Shown here piece after piece: positions 21,793 to 38,813 of a stretch of 64,000 nt of DNA (its first letter is position 1; each line of letters begins with the position of its first letter). A program made the position numbers and the translations under genes. The notes below the pieces were generated by a model. The model worked only from the letters and a program-made list of their open reading frames with translations. It was not told the DNA's origin and did no database searches. The DNA lies in NCBI RefSeq assembly GCF_001485535.1, contig NZ_BCMZ01000001.1, forward strand, positions 744,001-808,000, in the 5' to 3' direction. This DNA is from Halobacterium sp. CBA1132. Lineage in GTDB: Archaea; Halobacteriota; Halobacteria; Halobacteriales; Halobacteriaceae.

Positions 21793-22479
21793 TCAGTCGT
21801 CGGCGTGCGCGAGTTCGAAGGGGTACGGCGGCAGTCGGAGGTCCTCCAGTTCCGCGAGGTGCTTGACGTTGTAGACGACGCGCAGTTCCTCGGTGGTGGG
21901 GACGCCGTTGCAGGAGAGCCGGATGTCCCGGTCGACCAGTTCCGGGGAGAGGATGTGGTCGGTCGGCTGGGAGAGGTCGCCGTCGACGACCACGACCGCG
22001 CAGTTCGCGCACGCGCCGCCGCGGCAGGCGTACGGCCACGCGAACCCGCGGTCCTCGGCGGCCTCCAACAGCGACTCGCCGGGCGCGACGTCGAATTCGC
22101 CGTGGTTCACGGGGTCGAGGCCGGCGTCGTCGGCGCGCTCGAAGAGGTCGGCGTCGCCCAGCGCCCACCCGTAGTCGTCCAGCACGGCGTAGTTCAGGTA
22201 CTCGACGTGGGACTCCTCCCACGGCCGGAAGTCCTGGTCGGGGTCGACGCCGTAGTCGGTCGGCGACTCCTCGGTGAAGCCGGCTTCCGTCGCGAGGTCG
22301 GTGCCGTCGTCGGCGTCCTCGCTCGTGGCTTTCTCGTAGGCCGCACGCACCAACTGGAACTGCGCCGCGGACCCGCCCTGGTCGGGGTGGGCTTCCTTGA
22401 CGCGTTCGCGGTACGCGCGTTCGATCTCCCCGTCGCTGGCGTCCTCGTCGACTCCCAGCACGTCGAAGGGAGAATCCAT
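21793..22479 (-). CDS. J-domain / plant-type [2Fe-2S] ferredoxin fusion
   Basis: 228 residues. Residues 1-55 are a J-domain: SPFDVLGVDEDASDGEIERAYR with the HPD triad at 31-33 (AHPDQGG). Residues 90-225 are a halophilic ferredoxin with an acidic insert (FERADDAGLDPVNHGEF) and cluster ligands C152, C157, C160 and C190 (CRGGACANC). Haloarchaeal ferredoxins are electron acceptors of 2-oxoacid oxidoreductases. The J-domain would let it engage DnaK, perhaps for cluster insertion. The link between the domains (56-88) is acidic. Confidence 0.85.
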   Translation of the reverse strand: MDSPFDVLGVDEDASDGEIERAYRERVKEAHPDQGGSAAQFQLVRAAYEKATSEDADDGTDLATEAGFTEESPTDYGVDPDQDFRPWEESHVEYLNYAVLDDYGWALGDADLFERADDAGLDPVNHGEFDVAPGESLLEAAEDRGFAWPYACRGGACANCAVVVVDGDLSQPTDHILSPELVDRDIRLSCNGVPTTEELRVVYNVKHLAELEDLRLPPYPFELAHADD

Positions 22480-22587
22480 ACTGGACTCGAAGGGCCACAC
22501 GTTCAAAAGTCTCTCCGCGGGCGCGCCGCTTGCCGGAGCCTCCCGGGCATCGGAAAACCCTTGCCGGACCGACGGGTGTCGCCTACT

Positions 22588-25434: not shown

Positions 25435-26445
25435 TCAGTCCTCGGCGGGCGGCTGACCACCGTCGGTGGCGGCCTCCGCTCCGGAGTCGTCTTCACCGGC
25501 GACCTGCTGCTCGTAGCGAGCGCGCAGGACGTTGCCGTACGTCGACAACACGACGCCCAGCAGCAACACGAACATCCCGAGGTTGATGCCGATGGTGAGC
25601 AGCACGCTCGTCGGGCCACCACCGGGGGTCAACTGCGCGGGTATCGGATACCCGGAGTCGAAGATACTCCCGACGAGCACGCTCACGATGCCGATGACGA
25701 CGGCGGCGCCCGCGAGGTTCACCGCCCACTTCCACGTGGGGCGCAGCGAGAGCAGCTCGATGCCGGTGCCCTCGTGGTCCTCGGGTTCGTCGTGGGGCAT
25801 CATCGACTTCGGCACGAACGCCTTCATCTCCACGGGGTAGAACGCGGGGTGGAACCCGTGTTCGAAGATGTGGAACATGATCCCCATCACCATCACGACC
25901 CCGAGGAGGCCGTGGAAGGTGACGAACGCGGTCGCGGCGGCCTTCGTCTGGAAGAACTGCGCGAGCCCGACCTTGCTCCAGATGAGCAGCCCCGAGATCA
26001 TCAGGAGGACGAGCTCGACGGTGAAAATCCAGACGACGCCCTTCCCGACGTACGACAGCAGCGGGACCTCGTCGGAGGAGTAGCCCGCGAACTGGCGCGC
26101 GTTCGGGTGGCGTTCGTCGGCACGCCCGAGCACGAACTGCACGTCCTGCACGAACGCTTTCGCGTCCGTCGGCGTCGGCAGCACCGCCTTGAAGTTCTTC
26201 CGTCGGCCCGGCCCGATGAGCATCAGCGTCACCCAGAAGACGGTGAGCACGATGAGGCCGAAGCCGGCGATGCGGTGGAGCGCGAGCACGCCCGCGTTGC
26301 CGCCCATGAACTCGACCATCCACCAGAGTTCGTCGTTGAACATCACGGAGTAGCCCGTGAAGAACAACAGGAAGACGTCGAGCGCGAGCAGCGAGTGGAA
26401 GTACGTCGTGACGCGCGTGAACTTCCCGTGGTCCATGTTCGTCAC
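25435..26445 (-). CDS. Formate dehydrogenase cytochrome b (gamma) subunit
   Basis: 336 residues, about six membrane helices. Candidate haem-b ligands are His in TYFHSLLALD, LALHRIAGFG, VTFHGLLG and MFHIFEHGFHP, the layout of FdnI/FdoI-type cytochromes. The GTG ending at 26445 overlaps the stop of the small membrane gene (GTGA); an ATG nine bases downstream is an alternative. It anchors the dehydrogenase and passes electrons to menaquinone. The C-terminal 30 residues are an acidic cytoplasmic tail. Last gene of the four-gene operon. Confidence 0.85.
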   Translation of the reverse strand: MTNMDHGKFTRVTTYFHSLLALDVFLLFFTGYSVMFNDELWWMVEFMGGNAGVLALHRIAGFGLIVLTVFWVTLMLIGPGRRKNFKAVLPTPTDAKAFVQDVQFVLGRADERHPNARQFAGYSSDEVPLLSYVGKGVVWIFTVELVLLMISGLLIWSKVGLAQFFQTKAAATAFVTFHGLLGVVMVMGIMFHIFEHGFHPAFYPVEMKAFVPKSMMPHDEPEDHEGTGIELLSLRPTWKWAVNLAGAAVVIGIVSVLVGSIFDSGYPIPAQLTPGGGPTSVLLTIGINLGMFVLLLGVVLSTYGNVLRARYEQQVAGEDDSGAEAATDGGQPPAED

Positions 26446-26834
26446 GCGCTCTCACCTCCGCTGTCGGCGTCGCGGCCGCCGTCCGTGGCGACCTCCGCGG
26501 GTTCGTCTGCGTCGCGCATCCGCGCGCCGAGGCGCCGGAACGCGCCCCAGTGCACGAACACCAGCACGAGGATGAACACGCCCATCAGGACGTCGACAGC
26601 GTGGATGACGACGATGAGCGAGTCGAGCAGCGGGTCGGTGTTGCCGGCGACGAAGTCCGTGCCGACGCCACCGCCTTCGACGGTCGGGTTGACGCGGTAC
26701 AGCGTCTCGAAGCTCGCGTCGAAGGAGCCGTTGACGTACCAGACGGAGGCGACTGCGACGACGATACCGACGAGGGCGCTGACCGCGATGGACAGCGCCT
26801 CCGACATGCCGCGTGCGTCGTCGCTGCGAGCCAT
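26442..26834 (-). CDS. Small membrane protein within the formate dehydrogenase operon
   Basis: 130 residues from the ATG ending at 26834. Two membrane helices (about 15-37, SIAVSALVGIVVAVASVWYV, and about 72-98, SLIVVIHAVDVLMGVFILVLVFVH) are separated by a 35-residue Gly/Thr-rich loop, with a charged tail (ARMRDADEPAEVATDGGRD). It overlaps both neighbours by one to four bases, so is made with the complex. It has a His in the second helix. It is not a standard FDH subunit; an anchor or assembly part is a guess. Confidence 0.68.
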   Translation of the reverse strand: MARSDDARGMSEALSIAVSALVGIVVAVASVWYVNGSFDASFETLYRVNPTVEGGGVGTDFVAGNTDPLLDSLIVVIHAVDVLMGVFILVLVFVHWGAFRRLGARMRDADEPAEVATDGGRDADSGGESA

Positions 26835-27508
26835 CAGTTGAACACCTCCGCGTCCTCGCCGAAGATGACCTCCATCGCTTCGTCGTTGAAGAACGGGTCG
26901 CGGTCGCGCTTCTCGAACTCGTCGGCGATCTGATTGGGCTGACCGACGAGGATGGCGTCGGTAGCGCACTCTTCGGCGCACGCCGGGCCCTTCCCGATGT
27001 CCTGGCGCTCCTCGCACATCGTACACTTGTCCATGATGCCGCCGGTGCCGACGACCGCGTTCCCGCCGTCGTTCTCGTCGGGGAACTGCGGGGCGCCGAA
27101 CGGACACGCTGACAGGCAGTACTGACAGCCGACGCAGAGGTCCTCGCTGACCTGCACGAAGTCGTCGTCGTTCTTCTGGAGCGCGTCGGTCGGACACACC
27201 GACACGCAGGGCGCGTTCTCGCAGTGGTAACACTGCATCGGGATGGCGGTCTCGCCGGGGAACGCGCCGTCGTCGAGGGCCTGCGAGCTGTTGGCGTTGT
27301 AGCCGTCGTCGGCCTGCTCGCCCTCGAACATCGTGGAGATGCTGATACGCTGTTCCTCCGGGCCGATGTCCCACGTGCGCTTGCACGCGACGACACAGCC
27401 GCCGCAGTCGATACAGGCCTCGACGTCGGGGAAGATGCGAGCACCTTCGCCGGTGCTCATGACCCCCTGGCTCAAGACCTCACGTTGTGATTGTTGATTC
27501 GATGACAT
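26834..27508 (-). CDS. Formate dehydrogenase iron-sulfur (beta) subunit
   Basis: 224 residues with four [4Fe-4S] motifs in FdnH/HybA order: CIDCGGCVVAC (32-42), CYHCENAPCVSVCP, CVGCQYCLSACP, and CTMCEERQ...ACAEECA, the last with a long spacer. The clusters form a wire from the catalytic subunit to the cytochrome. There is no own signal peptide, so it would be co-exported with the Tat-bearing alpha subunit. The gap to the alpha gene is only three bases. Confidence 0.9.
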   Translation of the reverse strand: MSSNQQSQREVLSQGVMSTGEGARIFPDVEACIDCGGCVVACKRTWDIGPEEQRISISTMFEGEQADDGYNANSSQALDDGAFPGETAIPMQCYHCENAPCVSVCPTDALQKNDDDFVQVSEDLCVGCQYCLSACPFGAPQFPDENDGGNAVVGTGGIMDKCTMCEERQDIGKGPACAEECATDAILVGQPNQIADEFEKRDRDPFFNDEAMEVIFGEDAEVFN

Positions 27509-27511
27509 TGG

Positions 27512-30500
27512 TTACTGAACGGGCTTGTTCTCCCGGACGTCGAAGTCCTTCTGTCGACCGATGTTGGCCTCGTCCTGAGGGAACGAGAACGTCGACAGGT
27601 CGACGTCCATGTTGAGTTCGTCGACGACGCTCTGGGTCGCCTTCCGAACGCGAGCCATCGCGGCCTTCGTCTCCTGCATCTGGGTCTCGACGTCGTACCC
27701 CGGTGACGTGATGGAGTTCACGCTGTCGCCGATTGCGAACGGCGCCATGCCGTCCGGGTACTCGTCGAGGAGGCTCTCCCCTTGGAAGATGCCGCCCCAG
27801 TGGTACGGGAGGAACGTCTCCTCCGCGTTCGGTCGCCGAGTGACGCGCGCCTTCACCAACACCGACCCGCGGTTGGTCGTCTCCACGACCACCAGGTCGC
27901 CGCCGTCCACGCCGAGGTCCTCGGCCATGTCCGGGTGAATCTCGGCGTACATGTGCGGCTGGAGGTCGGCGGTGAAGATGTTCGACCGCGTCTCCGAGCC
28001 ACCACCCTGATGCTCGACCTGTCGACCGGTCGTCATGATGGTGTCGATGGCGCCGTCCGAATCCGCGATGCGGTCCATCGCGCGATTCTGGACCTCCGAG
28101 TTGTTCTGGTCCAGCCGGTAGATGTTGTGCTGCTGGCCGTTCGCTGGCCACTGCTCGGTCAGCTCGGCCTCCGGACTCTCGATGGGTTCGCGGTGAACCG
28201 GCGTCGTGTCGAGGAAGTTCCAGGCGACCGCACGTGCCCGACCGCGCCCCGTCGGCGGGTCCGGCTGCGGGTTGTCGAACTGCCGCCAGAACTCCATGTC
28301 GAAGTCGTACTCGTCGCGCTTGTTCAGTTCGCGCGCCGTGTCGAACGCCGAGTGGTCCTCGCTGAGCGCGTACTCGTACGGCAGCGACAGCGTGGACGGA
28401 TTGTCGAGGTCATCCGGGAACACCGTCGCGAACCCGGGGTACTCCGGAACGCCCTCGAGTTCGCCCGCGTACCAGTCCGGCGAGAACGACGCCCGAAGCA
28501 TGTTCAGGCCTTCCTCGCCCTCTTGGTCGTAGGTCTCCTGCAGCGGGTACTCCTTGCTGGTGTCCATCGACGCCCACTCGTCGGGCGTCGGCGCCTTCGT
28601 CCCCCAGCGGGAACGGAAGTCCTGTCCGCCCTCGCGGGGGTCGACTTCGTCGGTCCAGAGAATCGGCGTGCCCGGGTGTCCGTCACCCCAGCACGGCCAC
28701 GGAAGACTCCAGTACTCGCCGCTGACCGGGAGTTCGGAGTCGTGGCACTTCGTGTCCTCCTCGGAGAACGCGTAGTCGTACTCTCGGTGTTGCTGGAGCC
28801 GCTCGGGGCTCTGCTGGTACCCGATGGTGCGGACGCCGAGGTTGATTTCGCGCAGCGCTTCCTCGTACGTCGACTTCCCGTTGAACAGCTCGGGGCCCGA
28901 ACCCCAGTCGAAGTGCTCGCCGAAGCCGAGGCGGTCGGCCAGCTCCTGCATGATCTGCAGGTCCGGCTTCGCCTCGTGGCTCGGCGGCCGCACGGGCTCG
29001 CTCCACTGCACCGCGCGGTGGGAGTTCGTGACCGAGCGGTAGTGCTCGTACTGGCTGGCGGCCGGCAGCAGGATGACGCCGTCGTCGCGGTCCGGCAGCA
29101 CGGACGCCAGCGACGGGAACAGGTCCACGACGACGAGGAGGTCGAGCGCCTCCATCGCCTGCCGCATCCGCGGCATCTCCGAGATGGAGTTCGAGGAGTG
29201 CCCCCAGAAGAACGCCGCTTTCACGGGGTTCTCTTGGTACAGCGACGATTCGAGCAGCCGGTCTTCCTGGTCGAGTGCGCCCTCGAACCAGCGGGCGACC
29301 GTCAGCCCGTTCTGGAACATCAGCGACCGGTCCTCCGCGGAGGCGTCCGGGTCGCCGCCCTGCTTGCCGAACTCCTCGGGCGGCATCGTCTCGAACTTCT
29401 CGTAGAGGTCCTGGTAGCTGACGTCCCCCGAGGTCACCGGCGTCTGGTCCCAGACGTCGGCCCAGTACTCCCAGGAACCACGGCTGGAGACGCCGTAGTA
29501 ACCGGGGAGGATGTGGCTGGCGACACCGAGGTCGGTCGCACCCTGCACGTTCGCGTGGCCACGCATCACCTGCAGGCCGCCGCCCGAGTGGGCGGCGCTC
29601 CCGGAGGCGAGGCTCGTCAGCGCGTACGAGCGAATATTCTGCGTGCCGTTGTTGTGCTGGGTGCCACCCATCGCCCACTCGATTTGGACGTTGGGCTTGT
29701 TCTCGATGATGAGGTCGCCGAGTTCGCGGACGCGGTCCGCGCTAATCCACGTGATTTCCTCGACGGTCTCGGGGTCGTAGTCGTCGAGTTCGCCGTCGAC
29801 GTCCGGCCACCCCTGCACGCGGTCCTCCAGCATGTCGTCGTCGAGCTCGCCCTGCTCGCGGAGGTACCGCATGAGCCCCATCATCAGTGCGACGTCCGTC
29901 CCGGGACGCAGCCGGTAGAAGTCGTCCGCGTGAGCGGACGTCTTCGTGTACCGGGGGTCCACGGAGACGACCGTGCCGCCGCGGGCCTGCCCCTCGAGGA
30001 TGTGCTGCATCGCGATGGGGTGGGCTTCCGCGGGGTTCTGCCCGATGATGAGGTTGAGGTCGAAGTTCCGGTAGTCGTTGACCGTGTTCGTCATCGCCCC
30101 GTAGCCCCACGTGTTTGCGAGGCCGGAGACGGTCGTGGAGTGGCAAATACGGGCCTGATGGTCGATGTTGTTCGTGCCCATGAACGAGGCGAGCTTCCGC
30201 GACGCGTACGCCTCCTCGTTGCAGTGGTGGGCACTCCCGAGGAACATCAGGCTGTCCCGCCCGTACTCGTCCCAGATTCGCTCCAGTTCCTCGGTGATGT
30301 GGGAGTACGCTTCGTCCCACGAAATCTTCTTCCACTCGCCGTCTTCCTTCCGCATCGGATGTTTCAGACGTCGCTCGGAGTGTTCGCTGCCGTAGATGGC
30401 AGCCCCCTTAGAGCAGAGCGACCCGTTGTTAATCGGGTTCTCCTCCCAGGGCTCCTGCCCGACGAAAGCGTCACCTTCGCGTTCTCCGCGGAAACCACAC

Positions 30501-30694
30501 CCGACCGCGCAGAAGTTACAGATGGTTTTGGTGAGCGTCGAATCGTCGCCGGAGACGTCGGCGCCACCGCTTTCGCCGTCCTGAGCGAGCGTCTGGCCGG
30601 TTATCCCGCCACCGAGGGCGATGCCGCCCGCGAGGGCGCTCGCCTTCATGAACGAGCGGCGGTCTAGGTCCAGAGAGACCGGTTGTGTACTCAT
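27512..30694 (-). CDS. Formate dehydrogenase catalytic (alpha) subunit, Tat-exported, Cys-type
   Basis: 1060 residues, molybdo/tungsto-bis-MGD oxidoreductase. Tat signal DRRSFMKASALAGGIALGGG at 11-30. [4Fe-4S] ligands C59, C62, C66 and C94. The metal-ligand segment is RICHST with C184 followed by H185, the Cys-His pair of formate dehydrogenases (Sec in some bacteria). The C-terminal dinucleotide domain (from about 900) is present. It should oxidise formate to CO2 on the outer face of the membrane. The 171-bp upstream region is shared with a divergent operon and holds several dyads. Confidence 0.9.
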   Translation of the reverse strand: MSTQPVSLDLDRRSFMKASALAGGIALGGGITGQTLAQDGESGGADVSGDDSTLTKTICNFCAVGCGFRGEREGDAFVGQEPWEENPINNGSLCSKGAAIYGSEHSERRLKHPMRKEDGEWKKISWDEAYSHITEELERIWDEYGRDSLMFLGSAHHCNEEAYASRKLASFMGTNNIDHQARICHSTTVSGLANTWGYGAMTNTVNDYRNFDLNLIIGQNPAEAHPIAMQHILEGQARGGTVVSVDPRYTKTSAHADDFYRLRPGTDVALMMGLMRYLREQGELDDDMLEDRVQGWPDVDGELDDYDPETVEEITWISADRVRELGDLIIENKPNVQIEWAMGGTQHNNGTQNIRSYALTSLASGSAAHSGGGLQVMRGHANVQGATDLGVASHILPGYYGVSSRGSWEYWADVWDQTPVTSGDVSYQDLYEKFETMPPEEFGKQGGDPDASAEDRSLMFQNGLTVARWFEGALDQEDRLLESSLYQENPVKAAFFWGHSSNSISEMPRMRQAMEALDLLVVVDLFPSLASVLPDRDDGVILLPAASQYEHYRSVTNSHRAVQWSEPVRPPSHEAKPDLQIMQELADRLGFGEHFDWGSGPELFNGKSTYEEALREINLGVRTIGYQQSPERLQQHREYDYAFSEEDTKCHDSELPVSGEYWSLPWPCWGDGHPGTPILWTDEVDPREGGQDFRSRWGTKAPTPDEWASMDTSKEYPLQETYDQEGEEGLNMLRASFSPDWYAGELEGVPEYPGFATVFPDDLDNPSTLSLPYEYALSEDHSAFDTARELNKRDEYDFDMEFWRQFDNPQPDPPTGRGRARAVAWNFLDTTPVHREPIESPEAELTEQWPANGQQHNIYRLDQNNSEVQNRAMDRIADSDGAIDTIMTTGRQVEHQGGGSETRSNIFTADLQPHMYAEIHPDMAEDLGVDGGDLVVVETTNRGSVLVKARVTRRPNAEETFLPYHWGGIFQGESLLDEYPDGMAPFAIGDSVNSITSPGYDVETQMQETKAAMARVRKATQSVVDELNMDVDLSTFSFPQDEANIGRQKDFDVRENKPVQ

Positions 30695-30865
30695 GGTTTA
30701 GAGCCTGTCACCGTGTAACACGATTAATGCGGTGGGAGCCACTTTAGTGTTCCTGCCTAGCGGCAGTATTCTGTCCTCAGAATCCCAGGAAGGAAGCGGG
30801 GAATGCCGGTTCTCGGCTGTTGACAGCCGCAACCTCTTTCGGTGGGCGCACGTAACGGAGAGTGA
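30695..30865. promoter_or_regulatory. Divergent control region with several dyads
   Basis: Between the formate dehydrogenase start and the HdrA-like start. Dyads: GTGTAACAC at 30713-30721; CTGCC-N4-GGCAG at 30753-30766; ATTCTG-N4-CAGAAT at 30768-30783, the last with perfect six-base arms. A TA-rich ATTAAT at 30723-30728 may be the minus-strand TATA element, about 31 nt before the alpha subunit ATG. The plus gene has a GGAG ribosome site at 30857-30860. These are candidate binding sites for a shared regulator. Confidence 0.5.
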
Positions 30866-32959
30866 ATGAACGTCGGGGCGTTCGTCTGTGGCTGCGGTGG
30901 TACGGTCGACCTCGACCTCGAAGGCGTCCGCGAGGGCGTCCGCGACGTCGACGTCGTGGCCAGCGGGTCGCGTCTCTGTACGGAGGGACTCCCGAAGGTC
31001 CGGCACGTCGTCGAGGAGTACGACCTCGACCACCTGATAGTCACGGCCGAAAGCGACAGTTGCAAGCAGCGGTACCGGACGGTGCTCGACGACGCGGGCC
31101 TCCATCCGGAGGCGATCTCGTTCGTCAACCACCGCGAGCGCGGCGCGTGGGTCCACGACGAGACCGACGCGACCGACCTCGTCGCACGGAAGATAAACGG
31201 CGCGTACGCCGGCCTCCGAGAGGAGGCGCAGCCGCGGTCGGTCTCCCGTGAGGCCGGCGACGACGTCGTGGTCGTCGGCGACCCCGAGGCCGCCGAGGCG
31301 CTCTCCGACTCCGCGGACGTCACGCTGCTGGCGGACGGACGGGACTTCGCGGACGCCGACTACGACCTCCGCGACGTCACCCTCGCTCGCGGCCGCGTCA
31401 CGGACGTCGACGGCGTCTACGGCGAGTTCGAGATTCAGGTGCAGGCCGGCGTCACTGAGGACTGCATCGACTGCATGGAGTGCGTCGAGCAGGGGCCCGA
31501 CGAGTACGTCACGAGCAAGCCCGTGGACGTGCTGCCGGGCGCGCCGAACGGCGACTGGGTGGACTGCTGTCCGACCGACGCCATCCACCCCGAGGAGCGC
31601 ACCATCGAAGCGGACCAAGTCGTCTACCCGGACGCGTCGCGGTCGACTCGCGGCGGCCGCATGGGGTTCTACACGGGCCCCGTCGACGCCGCCACCGTCG
31701 CGGCCGTCCAAGACCTCATCGGCGGCATCGAGAAGCCCCAGTTCCTCGACGTGGAGATGGACGTCTGCGCTGCGGGTGGGTCCAGCCAGCAGGGCTGTAC
31801 GGCGTGTTCGGACGCCTGCCCGCACGGCGCCGTCTCCCGCCCCACCATCGACAGCGTGGAGTTCGACGAGGTGGCGTGCGAGGGCTGTGGCGCGTGTACG
31901 AGCGCGTGCCCGACCGGCGCGGTGCGCGCCCGCGAACCGTCCAACGAGCGCATCTCCCGGGAGGTCGAGTCGATGCTCGCCGAGACCGACGACTCCGGCC
32001 TGCTCTCCGGCTCGGACGGCATCGACACCGGCGTCGTCGCGTTCGTCTGCGACGAGCGCGCCGCCCGCACGCTCGACGACTTCGGGCGTCGCGCCCGCCA
32101 GCAGGACGGCATCGAGTACCCGCCGCTGCTCCCCGTGGAAGTGCCGTGCGCGGACACCGTCGGCGAAGCGCACGTCCTGCACGCGCTCGCCGCGGGCGCG
32201 GACGGCGTCGCTATCGTCGGTTGCGGCGGCGACTGCCTGCACTCCGGCCCGGACCCGAAAGCCGAACTCGTCGAGCGCATGAACCGGGCGACCGAGGACC
32301 TCGGCCTCGGCAAGCGCACCGCGTTCTTCGCGCCCGAACCCGGCGAACCCGAGGCGTTCGTCGAGGACATCAGCCGCTTCGTCGAACTCGGTCTCGACCC
32401 GTCGCCGGTCCCCACGGGCCACGAGGCCGAGGGCGTCGCGGACCCGACCAGCGAGAACCCCGAGTTCAACACCCACGACTGGGGCTTGGAGAGCGTGCGC
32501 GCCATCGTCCCGCACGTCGAGCCCCGGGACGTGATTCGCGGGCTGGAGTCGTTCGGCCGCGTGGAAGTCAACGAGGACTGCACGTTCACGCCGACGTGCT
32601 CGAACCTCTGCCCGACGGACGCGCTCCGCCGGGAGGAAGCCGGCCTGGAGTTCGACCACGAGCGCTGCGTGAACTGCGGGCTCTGCGAGGAGGGCTGCAT
32701 GGAGGACGCCATCCGCGTGGACGGCGGCCTCGAACTCGGCCTGCTCCCGGAGAACAACGACGGCGACGCGTGGACGGCCGTCGCCGACGGCGAGATGCGG
32801 GAGTGTCGCCGCTGCGGCAAGCCGTTCACCAGTGAGGCGTCCGCCCAGAAGATCAGCGACGAAGTCGGGGACGTCGTCTCGGGCATCGCGCCCGACGCCG
32901 ACGGCGACGTCTTCGAGTACTGCAGTGACTGCCGCGCGAAACTCGTCTACGACAGATAA
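30866..32959 (+). CDS. Flavin-less HdrA-like / polyferredoxin / MvhD fusion protein
   Basis: 697 residues, cytosolic. Order: HdrA N-terminal-like domain 1-120 (VGAFVCGCGGTVDL, VNHRERGAWVHDETDATD); a 60-residue stub (132-190) where HdrA has its FAD domain, with no GxGxxG; ferredoxin-like Cys blocks at 200-235, 311-319 and 338-348; MvhD-like domain 386-505 with VAFVCDERAA, VPCADT and VGCGGDCLHS; another two-cluster block 572-612; and a C-terminal zinc ribbon C647-x2-C650...C686-x2-C689. This is an electron-transfer hub. Partner and direction are unknown; context is formate dehydrogenase and TorD. Confidence 0.8.
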   Translation: MNVGAFVCGCGGTVDLDLEGVREGVRDVDVVASGSRLCTEGLPKVRHVVEEYDLDHLIVTAESDSCKQRYRTVLDDAGLHPEAISFVNHRERGAWVHDETDATDLVARKINGAYAGLREEAQPRSVSREAGDDVVVVGDPEAAEALSDSADVTLLADGRDFADADYDLRDVTLARGRVTDVDGVYGEFEIQVQAGVTEDCIDCMECVEQGPDEYVTSKPVDVLPGAPNGDWVDCCPTDAIHPEERTIEADQVVYPDASRSTRGGRMGFYTGPVDAATVAAVQDLIGGIEKPQFLDVEMDVCAAGGSSQQGCTACSDACPHGAVSRPTIDSVEFDEVACEGCGACTSACPTGAVRAREPSNERISREVESMLAETDDSGLLSGSDGIDTGVVAFVCDERAARTLDDFGRRARQQDGIEYPPLLPVEVPCADTVGEAHVLHALAAGADGVAIVGCGGDCLHSGPDPKAELVERMNRATEDLGLGKRTAFFAPEPGEPEAFVEDISRFVELGLDPSPVPTGHEAEGVADPTSENPEFNTHDWGLESVRAIVPHVEPRDVIRGLESFGRVEVNEDCTFTPTCSNLCPTDALRREEAGLEFDHERCVNCGLCEEGCMEDAIRVDGGLELGLLPENNDGDAWTAVADGEMRECRRCGKPFTSEASAQKISDEVGDVVSGIAPDADGDVFEYCSDCRAKLVYDR

Positions 32960-32961
32960 CC

Positions 32962-33585
32962 ATGAGCTTGGACCAGCAGGCACTCTACGACGCGCGACTC
33001 GAACTCGTCGACTATCTCGTCGACGCATTCTACGACACCCCCGACGAGGCGTTCGTCGAACGCCTCCTCGACGGCGGCCTCGACACGCCCGCCGACTCCA
33101 TTAACGACGACCTCGACCAGGGGTTCGAGTACCTCCACGAGTTCGTCGCCGAGAACGAGGACCGCGACGTCGAGGCGGTCACCGACGAACTCGCCAAGGA
33201 GTTCACGCGGGTGTTCGTCGGCCCGCGGCCGCCGGTCCAGCCCCACGAGACGTACTACCGCGAGGACACGGACTTCCTCTCGTCGGGGCTGGCGGAGGTC
33301 GACGCCAGTTACAGCGCCGCGGGCTGGAACGTTCCCGAGTCGATCAGCGAAGAAGCAGACTACGTGGGCGTGGAACTACTGTTCCTCCGGAACCTGTTGC
33401 GCCGCCAGCAGGCCGGCGAGGAGGAGGCGGTCGGCTTCGAGCGCGTGTTCCTCGACGAGCACTTCTCGACGTGGCTGGACGCGCTCCTCGACGACGTCAT
33501 TGACGCGACGGACGAACCGTTCTACCTCGCGGCAGTCTACGTACTCCGCGGGTTCGTGTCGTTCGAACGAAATCTCGTCGAGTAA
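32962..33585 (+). CDS. TorD/DmsD-family molybdoenzyme chaperone
   Basis: 207 residues, all-helical, two bases after the HdrA-like gene. The family signature PHETYYRED (about residues 92-100) and the segment EADYVGVELLFLRNLL are present, with a C-terminal FYLAAVYVLRGFVSFE. TorD proteins bind the Tat signal or apo-form of molybdoenzymes until the cofactor is in place. The likely client is the divergently encoded formate dehydrogenase alpha subunit. Confidence 0.83.
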   Translation: MSLDQQALYDARLELVDYLVDAFYDTPDEAFVERLLDGGLDTPADSINDDLDQGFEYLHEFVAENEDRDVEAVTDELAKEFTRVFVGPRPPVQPHETYYREDTDFLSSGLAEVDASYSAAGWNVPESISEEADYVGVELLFLRNLLRRQQAGEEEAVGFERVFLDEHFSTWLDALLDDVIDATDEPFYLAAVYVLRGFVSFERNLVE

Positions 33586-34568: not shown

Positions 34569-35267
34569 TCACTCGAGGAGTTCCCAGCCGGCGCTCTCGG
34601 CGGCGTCGGCGAGGTCGACGAACTCCCAGCCGGCCTCCTCGGCAATCCACTGCTCGCCGTCGGTGCCGACAACGACCATCCGCTCGGAGTAGAACATCGA
34701 GTGCTCGTCGATGGCCGCGAGCCGCTCGGCGGGGCCGTCCCCGGAGCCGTTGAAGAAGTCGATGTCGAGTTGGTGCTCGCGCAGGAACGAGTTGATGGCG
34801 TGAGCGGGCACGTCCCCGACGAGGCCGACCCAGTCGGACCACTCGTTGGTCTCCGCGAGCGCGACGCGCGGGTCGTCGAGGCGCTGGACGGCCTCGTACG
34901 TGTACGCGGTCGCCATCTTGTCGACACCGCCGCCGTGGGGGCCGTTCGCCTCGGGCGCTTCGACGCGCTCCTCGGCAGGACCGGCGCCGCCCCCGGCGCC
35001 CCCGTGGTCTTTGGGGATGCCCGCGGGGCTGTCCGACGACTCGTAGGGGACGTGCGGGATGCGGTCGCCCTGCGAATCTCCCGCCTGCTCGGTGGCGTCG
35101 TCGGTGCCGGAGTCCGGAGTCGTCCCAGTGCTGTCGGCGCCCGCCGCCTCACCGACGTCGCCGTCGATGTCGGCGGACCCGTCGTTGCGCCACAGCCAGT
35201 CCCCGTCGTTGCCGTCCGCTTCGTCGGTCTCCACCTCGACGTCGTCTAAGTCGATTCGTTCAGTCAC
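34569..35267 (-). CDS. Acidic protein with C-terminal DUF7124-like domain
   Basis: 232 residues beginning at GTG 35267 inside the stop of the AOR-like gene (GTGA overlap). The first 115 residues are acidic and disordered (VEVETDEADGNDGD, then a G/A/E-rich stretch). The last 110 form an alpha/beta domain (MATAYTYEAVQRLDDPRVALAE through GWEFVDLADAAESAGWELLE). Tight coupling to the oxidoreductase suggests a joint role, but no motif identifies it. The DUF number is from memory. Confidence 0.65.
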   Translation of the reverse strand: MTERIDLDDVEVETDEADGNDGDWLWRNDGSADIDGDVGEAAGADSTGTTPDSGTDDATEQAGDSQGDRIPHVPYESSDSPAGIPKDHGGAGGGAGPAEERVEAPEANGPHGGGVDKMATAYTYEAVQRLDDPRVALAETNEWSDWVGLVGDVPAHAINSFLREHQLDIDFFNGSGDGPAERLAAIDEHSMFYSERMVVVGTDGEQWIAEEAGWEFVDLADAAESAGWELLE

Positions 35268-36994
35268 TGTGTAACCTCCGTCAGTTCGAGTCGTTCGAGC
35301 GTTTTCTCGGTCGGGACGCCCTCGCTGTCCCAACCGCGGGCGTCGTAGTATGCCGCCAGCATCGCGTCGAAGCGCTCCCGGTCGACGGCCGCACCCTCTT
35401 GTGGGCCGTCCGGCAGCGGCACGGTCATCGCCTCCGGGAGCGCGTCGTCGTCGCTGTCGTGGCCCTCGCGGACGTTGAACAGGCGGGTGAGATTCCACGC
35501 GCGCTCGCCGAGGTCCGCCAGCGACTCCGCGCTCGCGTCCACGCCGACAGCGCGCAGCCAGCGTGCGCCCTGCTCGGGCGCCGCTTCGCCCGCGAAGTCG
35601 TCGGCCACCAGACACCAGCGCGCGCTGCGGGCGTTCTGCTCGTCGACGACCGCTCGCACGCGGTCTGCGTCACTCCACGACTCCGCGGCGACCGCCGCGT
35701 CCTCGATTGGGCGGGCGCGTCGGTGGCACGCCCCGCGGTCGCTGGTCGCGTACGCCAGCGCCATCGCGGGCGCCGCCCGCGGGTCGTACGTCGGGAGTTC
35801 CATCGCCTTCACCGCGGGAATCAGCTGGTCGAAGCCGAGTCGGTCGGCCGCCGCGACGACGCCGTCCGCGAGCGCGTCCCCGAGGTCGGTCTCCCGGGTG
35901 GCGACCTCCCGGATGAGGCGGCGCGCGCCCTCCGGGTCGCCGAAGTCGACGGTCCTGTCGAGGGCGCCGCGCTCGCTGGCGCGCGCGGCGAACGCGACCG
36001 CGCTCCCGGCGCTGATGACGTCCACGCCGAGGCGGTCGCAGAGCCCGCTGAGTTCCGCGACGGCGTCGAAGTCGCTGATTCCGAGGCCGGCGCCCAGCGT
36101 GATGGAGGCCGCGCCCCGGGGCACGGTCTCGCTGTCGCCGTCGGGCACGCGAAAACCACCTGGTACGGCGTCGTCGGGCCGCTCCCGGCCGACGCTCGCT
36201 TCGCGGACGGCTTCGATGCCGACGTCGTCGGCGCCGTCGAACGTCCCGGACTGCCAGCCGCGGGTCGGCAGCGCGCCGACCTCGTCCGCGAAGTCGACGG
36301 ATTCGAGGGTTTCGCTGGCGGCCTGCCAGCGGCCGACCTCGGCGTCCGCGAACTCGTCGCTGGCGGCTTTCAGTTCCGGTGGCGTCTCCGGCGGGTCGTC
36401 GCGCGCGACGACGGCTTTCAGGCCTTTCGCGCCCATCACGGTGCCCGCGCCGCCGCGCCCGGCGTGGTGGTCGCCGCCGTCGGTCGCGACCGTCGCGAAC
36501 CGCACGCCGTGCTCGCCAGCGGGGCCGACGCACGCGACCGCCGAATCGGGGTACTCCGCTGCGGTCTCTGGGGCGTCGAGGCCCGCGAGTTCGGGCGCGT
36601 CCTCGATGTGGGCGGTGCCGTCTTCGACGACGAGCACGCCCGGTTCGTCGCGCTCGCCCTCGATTAGCACGAGCAGGCAATCGTCGAGGCTGCCCGCGAG
36701 CCGCGCGGCGAAGTCGCCGCCGGCGTACGAGTCGAGGAAGGCGTCTGTGAGCGGGGACTTCGTCACGACCGCGAATCGCGGTTCGCCGGGCGCGCGCCCG
36801 GTCAGCGGTCCGACCGCGAACGCCAACAAGTTCTCGGGGCCGAGCGGGTCGACGCCCGCCTCGGTGTCCGCGAGCAGGTAGCGCGCGGCCAGCCCCTTCC
36901 CGCCGACGTAGCGCTGTCGCCACTCCGGCGGAATCTCCTCGCGCGACACGGTCCCCGCGCCGAGTCGCACGCGCAACACGTGGTCCCCAACCAT
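35264..36994 (-). CDS. Aldehyde:ferredoxin oxidoreductase-like protein lacking cluster cysteines
   Basis: 576 residues from the ATG ending at 36994. AOR N-domain features: EEIPPEWRQRYVGGKGLAARYLL, LTGRAPGEPRFAVVTKSPL, and GGDHHAGRGGAGTVMGAKGLKAV. The region after LPTRGWQSGTF should contain CxxCxxxC for the [4Fe-4S] cluster, but reads RPDDAVPGGFRVPDG with no Cys; the fourth cluster position may survive as Cys in ARWCLVADD. The tungstopterin-facing GLGISDFDAVAELSGLCDRLGVDVISAG is retained. It could be a cluster-less enzyme or a non-catalytic relative. Confidence 0.78.
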   Translation of the reverse strand: MVGDHVLRVRLGAGTVSREEIPPEWRQRYVGGKGLAARYLLADTEAGVDPLGPENLLAFAVGPLTGRAPGEPRFAVVTKSPLTDAFLDSYAGGDFAARLAGSLDDCLLVLIEGERDEPGVLVVEDGTAHIEDAPELAGLDAPETAAEYPDSAVACVGPAGEHGVRFATVATDGGDHHAGRGGAGTVMGAKGLKAVVARDDPPETPPELKAASDEFADAEVGRWQAASETLESVDFADEVGALPTRGWQSGTFDGADDVGIEAVREASVGRERPDDAVPGGFRVPDGDSETVPRGAASITLGAGLGISDFDAVAELSGLCDRLGVDVISAGSAVAFAARASERGALDRTVDFGDPEGARRLIREVATRETDLGDALADGVVAAADRLGFDQLIPAVKAMELPTYDPRAAPAMALAYATSDRGACHRRARPIEDAAVAAESWSDADRVRAVVDEQNARSARWCLVADDFAGEAAPEQGARWLRAVGVDASAESLADLGERAWNLTRLFNVREGHDSDDDALPEAMTVPLPDGPQEGAAVDRERFDAMLAAYYDARGWDSEGVPTEKTLERLELTEVTQ

Positions 36995-37001
36995 GCCCGA
37001 A

Positions 37002-37025
37002 CGCAACGGTTGCGCGGGGTTAAGC
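37002..37025 (-). promoter_or_regulatory. Operator-like palindrome and TATA box before the AOR-like gene
   Basis: CGCAAC, one base, GTTGCG (37002-37014) is a perfect palindrome eight bases before the ATG at 36994. The minus-strand TATA-like GCTTAACC is at 37019-37025, about 28 nt before the start. A dyad between TATA box and start is the classic position for a repressor. Confidence 0.5.
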
Positions 37026-37072
37026 GTTGTCGCTCCGGAGCCTTCAAGCGACTGTGGCGCCGACGCCCGGTC

Positions 37073-37690
37073 GTGCGCTCAGCAGTCGTGCTCGCGGGCG
37101 GCCGCTCGACCCGCTACGGCGACGGCGACAAGGCGCTGGCGGACCTCGCCGGCGTCCCGATGCTGCGCCGGGTCGCCGACCGCCTCGCCGACGTCACCGA
37201 CGAACTAGTCGTGAACTGCCGGGACGACCAGCGCGGCCCGCACCGCGACGCCCTCGACGGCTATCCGAACCCCGTGAAGGTCGCGGAAGACCCCGAACCC
37301 GACGAGGGACCGATGGCGGGCATCGCCGCGGGCCTCCGGGAAGCCAGCGGCGAGTACGCGCTCGTCGTCGCCTGCGACATGCCGTTCGTCGACCCGGCCG
37401 TCGTCGACCTCCTCTTCGACCGCGCGGACGGCCACGACGCCGCCGTGCCCGAGATGGACGACGGCTGGTACCAGACGACGCAAGCAGTCTACCGCGCCGA
37501 CGCGATGGCCGCGGCCTGCGCGGCCGCCCTCGACCGCGGCGACCGCAAGATTCTCGCGCCGCTGGACTCGCTGGACTGGGTCGCCGTGCCCGAGAGCGAC
37601 GTGGCTGGGGCTGGCGACCTCGAATCCTTCCAGAACCTCAACACGCGCGAGGCGGTCGAGGACGCGGCCGAGCGGTTCGCGCCGCAGTAG
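37073..37690 (+). CDS. mobA: Molybdenum cofactor guanylyltransferase MobA
   Basis: 205 residues from GTG 37073; upstream in-frame sequence is Arg-rich and unlikely. Nucleotidyltransferase motifs: VLAGGRSTRYGDGDKAL (8-22, with the Lys that contacts GTP), DEGPMAGIAAGL, and ACDMPFVDP. MobA adds GMP to molybdopterin to give MGD, the cofactor form used by the formate dehydrogenase. It is divergent from the AOR-like gene. The placement beside molybdo/tungsto-enzyme genes fits. Confidence 0.87.
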   Translation: MRSAVVLAGGRSTRYGDGDKALADLAGVPMLRRVADRLADVTDELVVNCRDDQRGPHRDALDGYPNPVKVAEDPEPDEGPMAGIAAGLREASGEYALVVACDMPFVDPAVVDLLFDRADGHDAAVPEMDDGWYQTTQAVYRADAMAAACAAALDRGDRKILAPLDSLDWVAVPESDVAGAGDLESFQNLNTREAVEDAAERFAPQ

Positions 37691-37754
37691 TTCAGACGTC
37701 CGCGCTCGCCGCGCCTCGCGGAGCCGCCTCGGTCCTGCGATTCGCTCTCGTGCC

Positions 37755-38015
37755 TCAGAGAATGCTCCCGGCGGCGACGAACCCGAGGACGGAGCAGACC
37801 GCGACGCCGACGGCTCCGAGGAAGGCGACGAGGTCGCGGTTCGTCTCGGGCGCGAGCGCGAGCGCGCCGCCGAGCAACACGACGCCACCGACCGCGGGAA
37901 TCGCCGCGAGCTGAACGCCGGCGGCGCCGTGTAACGCGGCGAGCGCGAGCAGCCCGATTGCGAGGACGACACTCAGCGCGCTGCCGGTGTACCGTGCGAC
38001 GGTTGCGACTGCCAT
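37755..38015 (-). CDS. Small three-helix membrane protein
   Basis: 86 residues from the ATG ending at 38015, with three hydrophobic segments (about 10-30, 33-52, 62-84). Contains a single PETNRDL turn between helices two and three. It sits between mobA and yqeC but has no cofactor-related motif. Function unknown. Confidence 0.55.
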   Translation of the reverse strand: MAVATVARYTGSALSVVLAIGLLALAALHGAAGVQLAAIPAVGGVVLLGGALALAPETNRDLVAFLGAVGVAVCSVLGFVAAGSIL

Positions 38016-38093
38016 ACCGGATTTTGGCAGGCGGTTGTCAAAACCGTTCCGACGAGCGCGACGAGACTGGCTGCCCCACTCGCCGGCCACCCG

Positions 38094-38813
38094 TCAGACG
38101 ACGGTCTTCACCGGCTCGTCGGCTTTCAGCGACGTGACGACGACGCGGGGCACGTCCGCGCGGTCGTGGACGCCCTCCGCGATTTCCGTGGCGGTCTGGA
38201 CGAGCGCAGCGTCGTCGGCCATGTTCACGAGCGGAACGACGGTCGCGCCCTCGGGAACGTCTTTCATTCCGCCGTCGGGGTGCGCGAGCACGCTCGCGAC
38301 ATCCTCGGGGCGAATCTCGTCGCCGACCGCGAGGTCCGTGATGGCGGCGACGCGCTCGGGGCGGTGGGCGACGGCCTCCGAGAGCGGTTCGCCGACCGAC
38401 CGCACGCTCGCAATCGGCACCACGACGTCCGCGCAGTCCGGAATCTGCGGTTCGTGTTCGCCGGGCGCTTTCAGCCGGCGGGTGCGCGCGCCGTCGGCTT
38501 TCACGAGGACGGCGTTCGCGCCGGCGTCGGCGACGCTCGCGATTTGGTCCGTGTCGTAGCCGCGGTAGCGGTCCTCGTACTCGCGCTCGGGCACTACGCC
38601 GAGCGGCCAGTCGGCTGTCTCCCGGACGGCGGCGGCCGGGTCGTCCGTGACGACGACGCGGGAGACGTGTTCGTCGAAAATCGGGATGCGGACGGTCGCG
38701 GTGACGACCGCTCGCTGTACTCGGTCCGCGAGCGCGTACAACAGCGACTTCTTCCCGCCCGCACCGACCGCACAGACGACTCCCTCGGCGTCGACGGCGT
38801 CAACGAGGTCCAT
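38094..38813 (-). CDS. yqeC: YqeC-family protein (molybdenum hydroxylase maturation)
   Basis: 239 residues. P-loop-like VCAVGAGGKKSLLYALAD (13-30), then TATVRIPIFDEHV and a VLVKADGARTRRLKAPGEHEPQIP segment characteristic of YqeC. In bacteria yqeC genes travel with selenium-dependent molybdenum hydroxylases and xdhC; the biochemical step is not known. Here the neighbours are an AOR-like protein, mobA and a PadR regulator, which supports a metal-pterin maturation role. Confidence 0.78.
   Translation of the reverse strand: MDLVDAVDAEGVVCAVGAGGKKSLLYALADRVQRAVVTATVRIPIFDEHVSRVVVTDDPAAAVRETADWPLGVVPEREYEDRYRGYDTDQIASVADAGANAVLVKADGARTRRLKAPGEHEPQIPDCADVVVPIASVRSVGEPLSEAVAHRPERVAAITDLAVGDEIRPEDVASVLAHPDGGMKDVPEGATVVPLVNMADDAALVQTATEIAEGVHDRADVPRVVVTSLKADEPVKTVV

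Follow-up and report, generated by a model that had tools for sequence, protein, structure and literature searches.

The maturation of exported formate dehydrogenases (FDHs) has been described around FdhD, FdhE and the chaperone TorD. The FdhD sulfurtransferase is held to be essential in E. coli (PMC10609526), and in C. jejuni the TorD homologue FdhM is indispensable for FDH and serves it specifically (PMC4148689). Iron-sulfur proteins with accessory roles are known for other molybdoenzymes. NapF is a cytosolic four-cluster protein required for the Fe-S assembly of NapA in R. sphaeroides; it has been found complexed with NapA in E. coli and is dispensable in some bacteria (PMC10609526). HydN and YsaA of E. 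coli are auxiliary Fe-S proteins that affect the activity of FDH-H (PMC6004506). A survey of TorD/DmsD operons, FDH operons included, lists a gene named fer4 and the DUF3305/DUF3306 genes among the operon members (Bay et al. 2015, PMC4464133).

The locus analyzed here lies in a 64-kb stretch of a haloarchaeal genome (G000; 3.01 Mb, 99.6% complete), hereafter the window. A set of FDH genes faces the gene of a large fusion protein, FUS, and its chaperone gene, with the following features in window coordinates:

25435-26445, minus strand: cytochrome b561-type membrane anchor (PF01292, E 4.9e-21)
26442-26831, minus strand: two-TM subunit of the FDH
26834-27508, minus strand: FdhB iron-sulfur subunit (FDH3 beta family, E 1.8e-39, below its cut-off)
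27512-30694, minus strand: FdhA catalytic subunit, Tat-exported, the presumed client of FUS (TIGR01591, E 1e-134, below its cut-off)
30866-32959, plus strand: FUS, a flavin-less HdrA/FlpD-derived polyferredoxin with a zinc ribbon, 697 residues
32962-33585, plus strand: TorD/NarJ-family chaperone (PF02613, E 1.4e-22), 2 nt after FUS
36980-37690, plus strand: MobA-like guanylyltransferase, a frequent neighbor

The four structural genes on the minus strand diverge from FUS and TorD on the plus strand, and FdhA and FUS share an intergenic region of 171 bp. FdhA displays the Tat motif RRSFMKAS, Fe4S4 and molybdopterin domains, and the FDH-like Cys-His active-site motif ARICHST; no signal peptide of its own was seen in FdhB. 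FUS is 91-95% identical to the proteins of Halobacterium sp. CBA1126 and KA-4. The genes and domains found in the window agree in order and content with the initial annotation. The two-TM subunit matched no family in Pfam or NCBIfam; its histidines at reading positions 77 and 94 are invariant in 52 sequences and are possible haem ligands. AOR, MobA-like and YqeC genes (window 35264-38813) recur beside the FDH/FUS/TorD locus across haloarchaea. On the other side of the locus, at about 21800-22500 on the minus strand, a J-domain-like start and a plant-type [2Fe-2S] ferredoxin occur in one frame, as judged by eye from the translation.

FUS is built of seven parts, listed with their residue numbers:

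30869-31204, plus strand: HdrA-like N-terminal domain, residues 2-113, matching 9sfi_A and 5odc_A (phmmer against PDB sequences)
31238-31450, plus strand: Rossmann remnant, residues 125-195, a beta-alpha-beta unit with GDxxxA replacing GxGxxG
31451-31630, plus strand: reduced ferredoxin, residues 196-255 (C200, C203, C206, C235), corresponding to the ferredoxin insertion of the FAD domain in HdrA
31745-31945, plus strand: ferredoxin module 1, residues 294-360 (C301, C311, C314, C318, C338, C341, C344, C348)
32033-32386, plus strand: FlpD/MvhD domain, residues 390-507 (Pfam E 5.4e-19; Foldseek match to 5odc_D)
32561-32725, plus strand: ferredoxin module 2, residues 566-620, its first motif CxxTPxC in haloarchaea
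32798-32941, plus strand: zinc-ribbon-like end (C647, C650, C686, C689), HycF/HyfH-like

An AlphaFold2 model of FUS (mean pLDDT 83.7, pTM 0.81) retrieved HdrA chains as the top Foldseek hits (E 9.5e-18) and MvhD at an rmsd of 2.2 Å. The ferredoxin pairs are found at about residues 301-360 and 572-620; the phmmer match of HdrA to the first pair spans residues 295-370, and residues 569-691 match the HycF/HyfH family models. In the N-terminal domain, C8, C10 and C38 are invariant and a fourth cysteine falls within positions 57-70 in 50 of 50 relatives (C61 or C66 in FUS), a set that probably forms a [4Fe-4S] site. The cysteines of module 1 are invariant from haloarchaea through proteobacteria in the rows aligned. 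Invariance across 50 relatives also holds for C395, C428, C453 and C457 of the FlpD domain, which by analogy with MvhD would hold one [2Fe-2S] cluster. The C-terminal CX2C...CX2C is a probable zinc ribbon. Counted by invariant cysteines, with cluster types assigned from sequence, FUS has one [4Fe-4S] cluster in the N-terminal domain, one cluster in the mid ferredoxin, two in module 1, one in the FlpD domain and two in module 2, in addition to the ribbon. A substitution sets module 2 apart: at residues 572-582 (about 32579-32611), CxxCxxC has become CxxTPxC in 50 of 50 rows of the main haloarchaeal clade, whereas the cysteine persists in bacteria and in the FDH2 clade. One cluster is thus left with three of the usual cysteines only and may be [3Fe-4S] or otherwise ligated.

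The domain order points to HdrA. Profile-profile alignment of FUS with three HdrA sequences is colinear over residues 2-458 (E 8e-20), with ~250 residues of the FAD domain body missing. A flavin family match was found in none of 50 FUS relatives, nor was a GxGxxG/A motif, while the positive control, a Bipolaricaulota HdrA-FlpD fusion (L126:2187-4580), matched Pyr_redox_2, NAD_binding_8 and DAO. The initial annotation had described FUS as flavin-less, and this stands, with no complete FAD site predicted. Its 60-residue stub without GxGxxG is correct in that the motif is gone and a Rossmann remnant alone persists, but the region is better described as a stub followed by a reduced HdrA-type inserted ferredoxin. 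The Bipolaricaulota fusion has an intact FAD motif in a FUS-like domain order and likely pictures the ancestral architecture; judged by these alignments, FUS apparently derived from a bifurcating HdrA-FlpD protein after loss of the flavin part. Pfam revealed no catalytic domain in FUS, and no HdrB- or HdrC-like gene was recognized among its scanned window neighbors.

A survey of 292 genomes of the class (haloarchaea) revealed FUS in 79 and FdhA in 77. Both occur together in 76 (Fisher p 2e-65, uncorrected for shared ancestry), that is, in 76/79 FUS genomes and 76/77 FDH genomes, a phylogenetic profile that ties the protein to formate dehydrogenase as had been proposed. The FUS genomes devoid of FdhA are G212 and G285, which carry FUS in another operon, and G159 (a contig of Natrialba swarupiae, L113), which retains TorD-FUS-ApbC. 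Conversely, G128 has an NrfD-anchored FDH and a distant TorD but lacks FUS. AOR is present in 160 of the 292 genomes, against 79 with FUS, so FUS tracks FDH rather than AOR. AOR is also absent from the ArrA-type operons described below and from four bacterial loci inspected; on these grounds we reject it as the partner of FUS, and a link to the neighboring AOR finds no support. A search of viral contigs for FUS homologues gave no match.

Homologues of FUS exist in bacteria. A tblastn search against plasmids found genes of 650-690 residues labeled '4Fe-4S binding protein' in Sulfitobacter, Microvirga, Variovorax, Bradyrhizobium and others. The proteobacterial homologues align end to end with FUS (24-26% identity, about 90% coverage, E about 1e-25). 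Inspection of four loci showed FDH (FDH3) clusters with TorD and DUF3306, three of them with an annotated DUF3305 as well; the FUS homologue of Sulfitobacter has ApbC next to it, and the Microvirga and Variovorax clusters contain FdhD. Neither DUF3305 nor DUF3306 was recognized among the scanned window neighbors of FUS. The archaeal-bacterial alignment has 19 invariant cysteines, which all fall within the two ferredoxin modules and the zinc ribbon. The cysteines of the N-terminal domain, mid ferredoxin and FlpD domain vary between archaeal and bacterial forms, and the FlpD cysteines and N-domain cluster are gone in the FDH2 clade and in bacteria. A similar gene neighborhood suggests that the fer4 of Bay et al. 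is a FUS-type protein. Calling the fusion undescribed was therefore too broad, given that the proteobacterial homologues already have annotations and the survey of TorD/DmsD-fdh operons shows a fer4 gene (PMC4464133). The family itself was known already, but its derivation from HdrA, the form it takes in haloarchaea, its change of partner and its function seem not to have been described. Our literature search found no experimental study of any family member and no functional study of a FUS-type protein, the literature on fdhX, DUF3305/3306 and FdhM included.

The enzyme encoded with FUS is not always an FDH. In loci L036-L038, L106, L111 and L115, the operon consists of an ArrA/PhsA-like enzyme, an Fe-S subunit, NrfD, TorD, FUS and an ApbC/NUBPL carrier, mostly followed by MobA. 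L036 and L115 represent the same organism, and L106 is a Natronorubrum bangense plasmid in which the operon adjoins arsDA. The label ArrA/PhsA-like reflects matches to the ArrA, PhsA and TtrA families that all fall below curated cut-offs. The FUS proteins of these operons form one supported group in the tree, and G029 has two copies, the first of this type and the second close to its FDH. The same protein in both settings rules out a formate-only function, and the idea of a formate-specific hub fails on the subclade that pairs with the ArrA/PhsA-like enzyme instead. This enzyme has a peculiarity of its own (L037:13552-16356, L106, L111, L115): an N-terminal CWIGKQDC...CPKG with Gly for one usual cysteine of the Fe4S4 motif, a domain that Pfam did not find in it.

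TorD adjoins FUS in most loci, with FDH as well as ArrA-like partners. In most named loci, its start falls in a range from 17 nt before the FUS stop codon to a few nt beyond it (extrapolated, approximate positions). The order is reversed in Natronorubrum, where TorD precedes FUS and the frames overlap by 8 nt; in Variovorax, FUS precedes TorD with an overlap of 4 nt. Touching or overlapping frames in haloarchaea and Variovorax make the chaperone the closest genetic partner of FUS in both domains of life, archaea and bacteria alike. Open frames of 946, 859 and 847 residues (G143, G215, G041), considered as FUS-TorD fusions, are upstream frame extensions. The coupling is broken in a Natrialbaceae-rich subclade, labeled 'sep', in which FUS lies 3-20 kb from its FDH and TorD is not adjacent, and neither FDH nor TorD is in view near FUS in L095, L101 and L107.

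Most likely, FUS helps to build FDH before export rather than relaying formate electrons. Flavin-free clusters, no catalytic domain, and a gene that is encoded with the chaperone and moves with it between clients argue for an assembly factor. Of the two roles suggested initially, reductant for enzyme assembly or for a second oxidoreductase, the former fits best. The explanation that we favor, with some confidence, is that FUS is a cytosolic maturation factor that acts with TorD on the unexported apo-enzyme of a Tat-dependent molybdo/tungsto-enzyme, and that it serves more than one such exported enzyme, usually FDH and, in one subclade, the ArrA/PhsA-like enzyme. By analogy, NapF, to whose four clusters the invariant ferredoxin pairs and zinc ribbon of FUS are comparable, would be its functional precedent, and the adjoining ApbC/NUBPL carriers point the same way. 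TorD would keep hold of the apo-enzyme together with the Tat signal. FUS would dock on the apo-enzyme, probably via the FlpD/HdrA-derived shell, give low-potential electrons or clusters for the [4Fe-4S]/metal-bisMGD centers before export, and remain in the cytosol once the enzyme has left. The FlpD and HdrA shells may act as docking surfaces because these domains can persist after losing their cysteines. We lean toward a contribution of electrons rather than clusters. The anatomy, FAD-domain loss, co-occurrence, partner switch and TorD gene coupling are direct observations; we infer that FUS physically contacts its client, which step it serves and which way electrons or clusters flow. Should FUS indeed feed electrons or clusters into assembly, it would provide a missing redox step; this may explain failed heterologous expression of such FDHs without FUS, and an electron-bifurcation protein would have turned into an assembly factor.

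Several points weigh against the maturation reading. Gene association would also fit a redox partnership and does not tell the two apart. The 'sep' subclade is uncoupled from TorD, L095, L101 and L107 show neither partner, and the FDH of G128 does without FUS. Six or seven clusters also seem to exceed the need of a simple assembly factor. The MvhD domain is an electron entry point in methanogens. Its presence with a chain of ferredoxin blocks, and the AOR gene that often adjoins FDH-type haloarchaeal loci, would suit an internal electron hub, in which FUS serves metabolism by carrying cytosolic electrons to or from the quinone or FDH system, with ferredoxin, AOR or another oxidoreductase at the other end. 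We consider such a hub unlikely: the distribution of AOR in genomes and operons does not follow that of FUS, the client is exported and could contact FUS only before export, and loss of the FlpD cysteines and N-domain cluster in the FDH2 clade and bacteria breaks the wire.

A further role is suggested by the absence of other maturation factors. FdhD (PF02634) and FdhE (PF04216) were detected in none of the 292 haloarchaeal genomes, the 77 with FDH included, although a highly divergent FdhD is possible. The search controls score, those for FdhD including three archaea, and a second FdhD model yielded nothing significant in 12 haloarchaeal genomes. FUS, with TorD, might also cover the missing FdhD step in haloarchaea by helping to equip the Mo/W cofactor with its sulfido ligand. 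This is quite improbable, as FUS matches neither the FdhD nor the FdhE Pfam family, no sulfurtransferase domain was found in it, and FdhD accompanies it in Microvirga and Variovorax; bacteria that have both weaken the case for a general FdhD substitute, and FUS is no simple FdhD replacement. The presence of FDH in haloarchaea that have no recognizable FdhD or FdhE is unexpected, and its maturation route there is testable. The maturation reading can be extended, speculatively, to a bifurcating HdrA-MvhD enzyme that lost its flavin and became a redox module in the TorD-type maturation of more than one exported molybdoenzyme; in haloarchaea, it would belong to a route to active FDH that does without FdhD. 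That FUS is instead a working electron-accepting subunit of a cytosol-facing FDH, akin to methanogen FdhAB-MvhD-HdrABC, is very hard to credit: it has HdrA and MvhD parts, and the Methanospirillum complex 7bkb unites FDH and HdrA/MvhD, but the FdhA sequences read have Tat signals, the enzyme has dedicated membrane anchors, FUS lacks FAD and an HdrB/HdrC recognized in its operon, and it swaps to an ArrA-like enzyme.

Compared with HdrA, HdrA-FlpD fusions and MvhD (5odc, 7bkb; L126), FUS has the same succession of N-terminal domain, Rossmann region, ferredoxin, ferredoxin pair and FlpD domain, and it keeps the N-domain cluster cysteines and the ferredoxin pair in HdrA order. It differs in lacking the FAD domain body, in carrying an extra C-terminal ferredoxin pair and zinc ribbon, and in being tied to exported molybdoenzymes, with no HdrB/C partner recognized in the operon. 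With NapF it shares a cytosolic location, which for FUS is predicted, and several [4Fe-4S] clusters, NapF acting on its molybdoenzyme before Tat export beside a signal-binding chaperone (PMC10609526). However, FUS has 697 residues against the 149 positions of the NCBIfam NapF model, is not part of a nap operon and has no end-to-end homology to NapF, the similarity being at the level of ferredoxins (E 3e-8 over residues 309-360). HydN/YsaA of E. coli are likewise auxiliary Fe-S proteins, and the C-terminal part of FUS matches the ferredoxin-like HycF/HyfH, but all of these belong to the cytosolic FDH-H/FHL context and have neither HdrA or FlpD parts nor TorD. The proteobacterial fer4 or '4Fe-4S binding protein' is alike in full-length colinearity, TorD and FDH neighbors and invariant ferredoxin and zinc-ribbon cysteines. 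These forms are devoid of the FlpD cysteines, mostly lack the mid ferredoxin and are accompanied by DUF3305/3306, whereas haloarchaeal FUS keeps the N-domain and FlpD clusters. FUS is a haloarchaeal, cluster-rich variant of an uncharacterized family of molybdoenzyme-accessory proteins.
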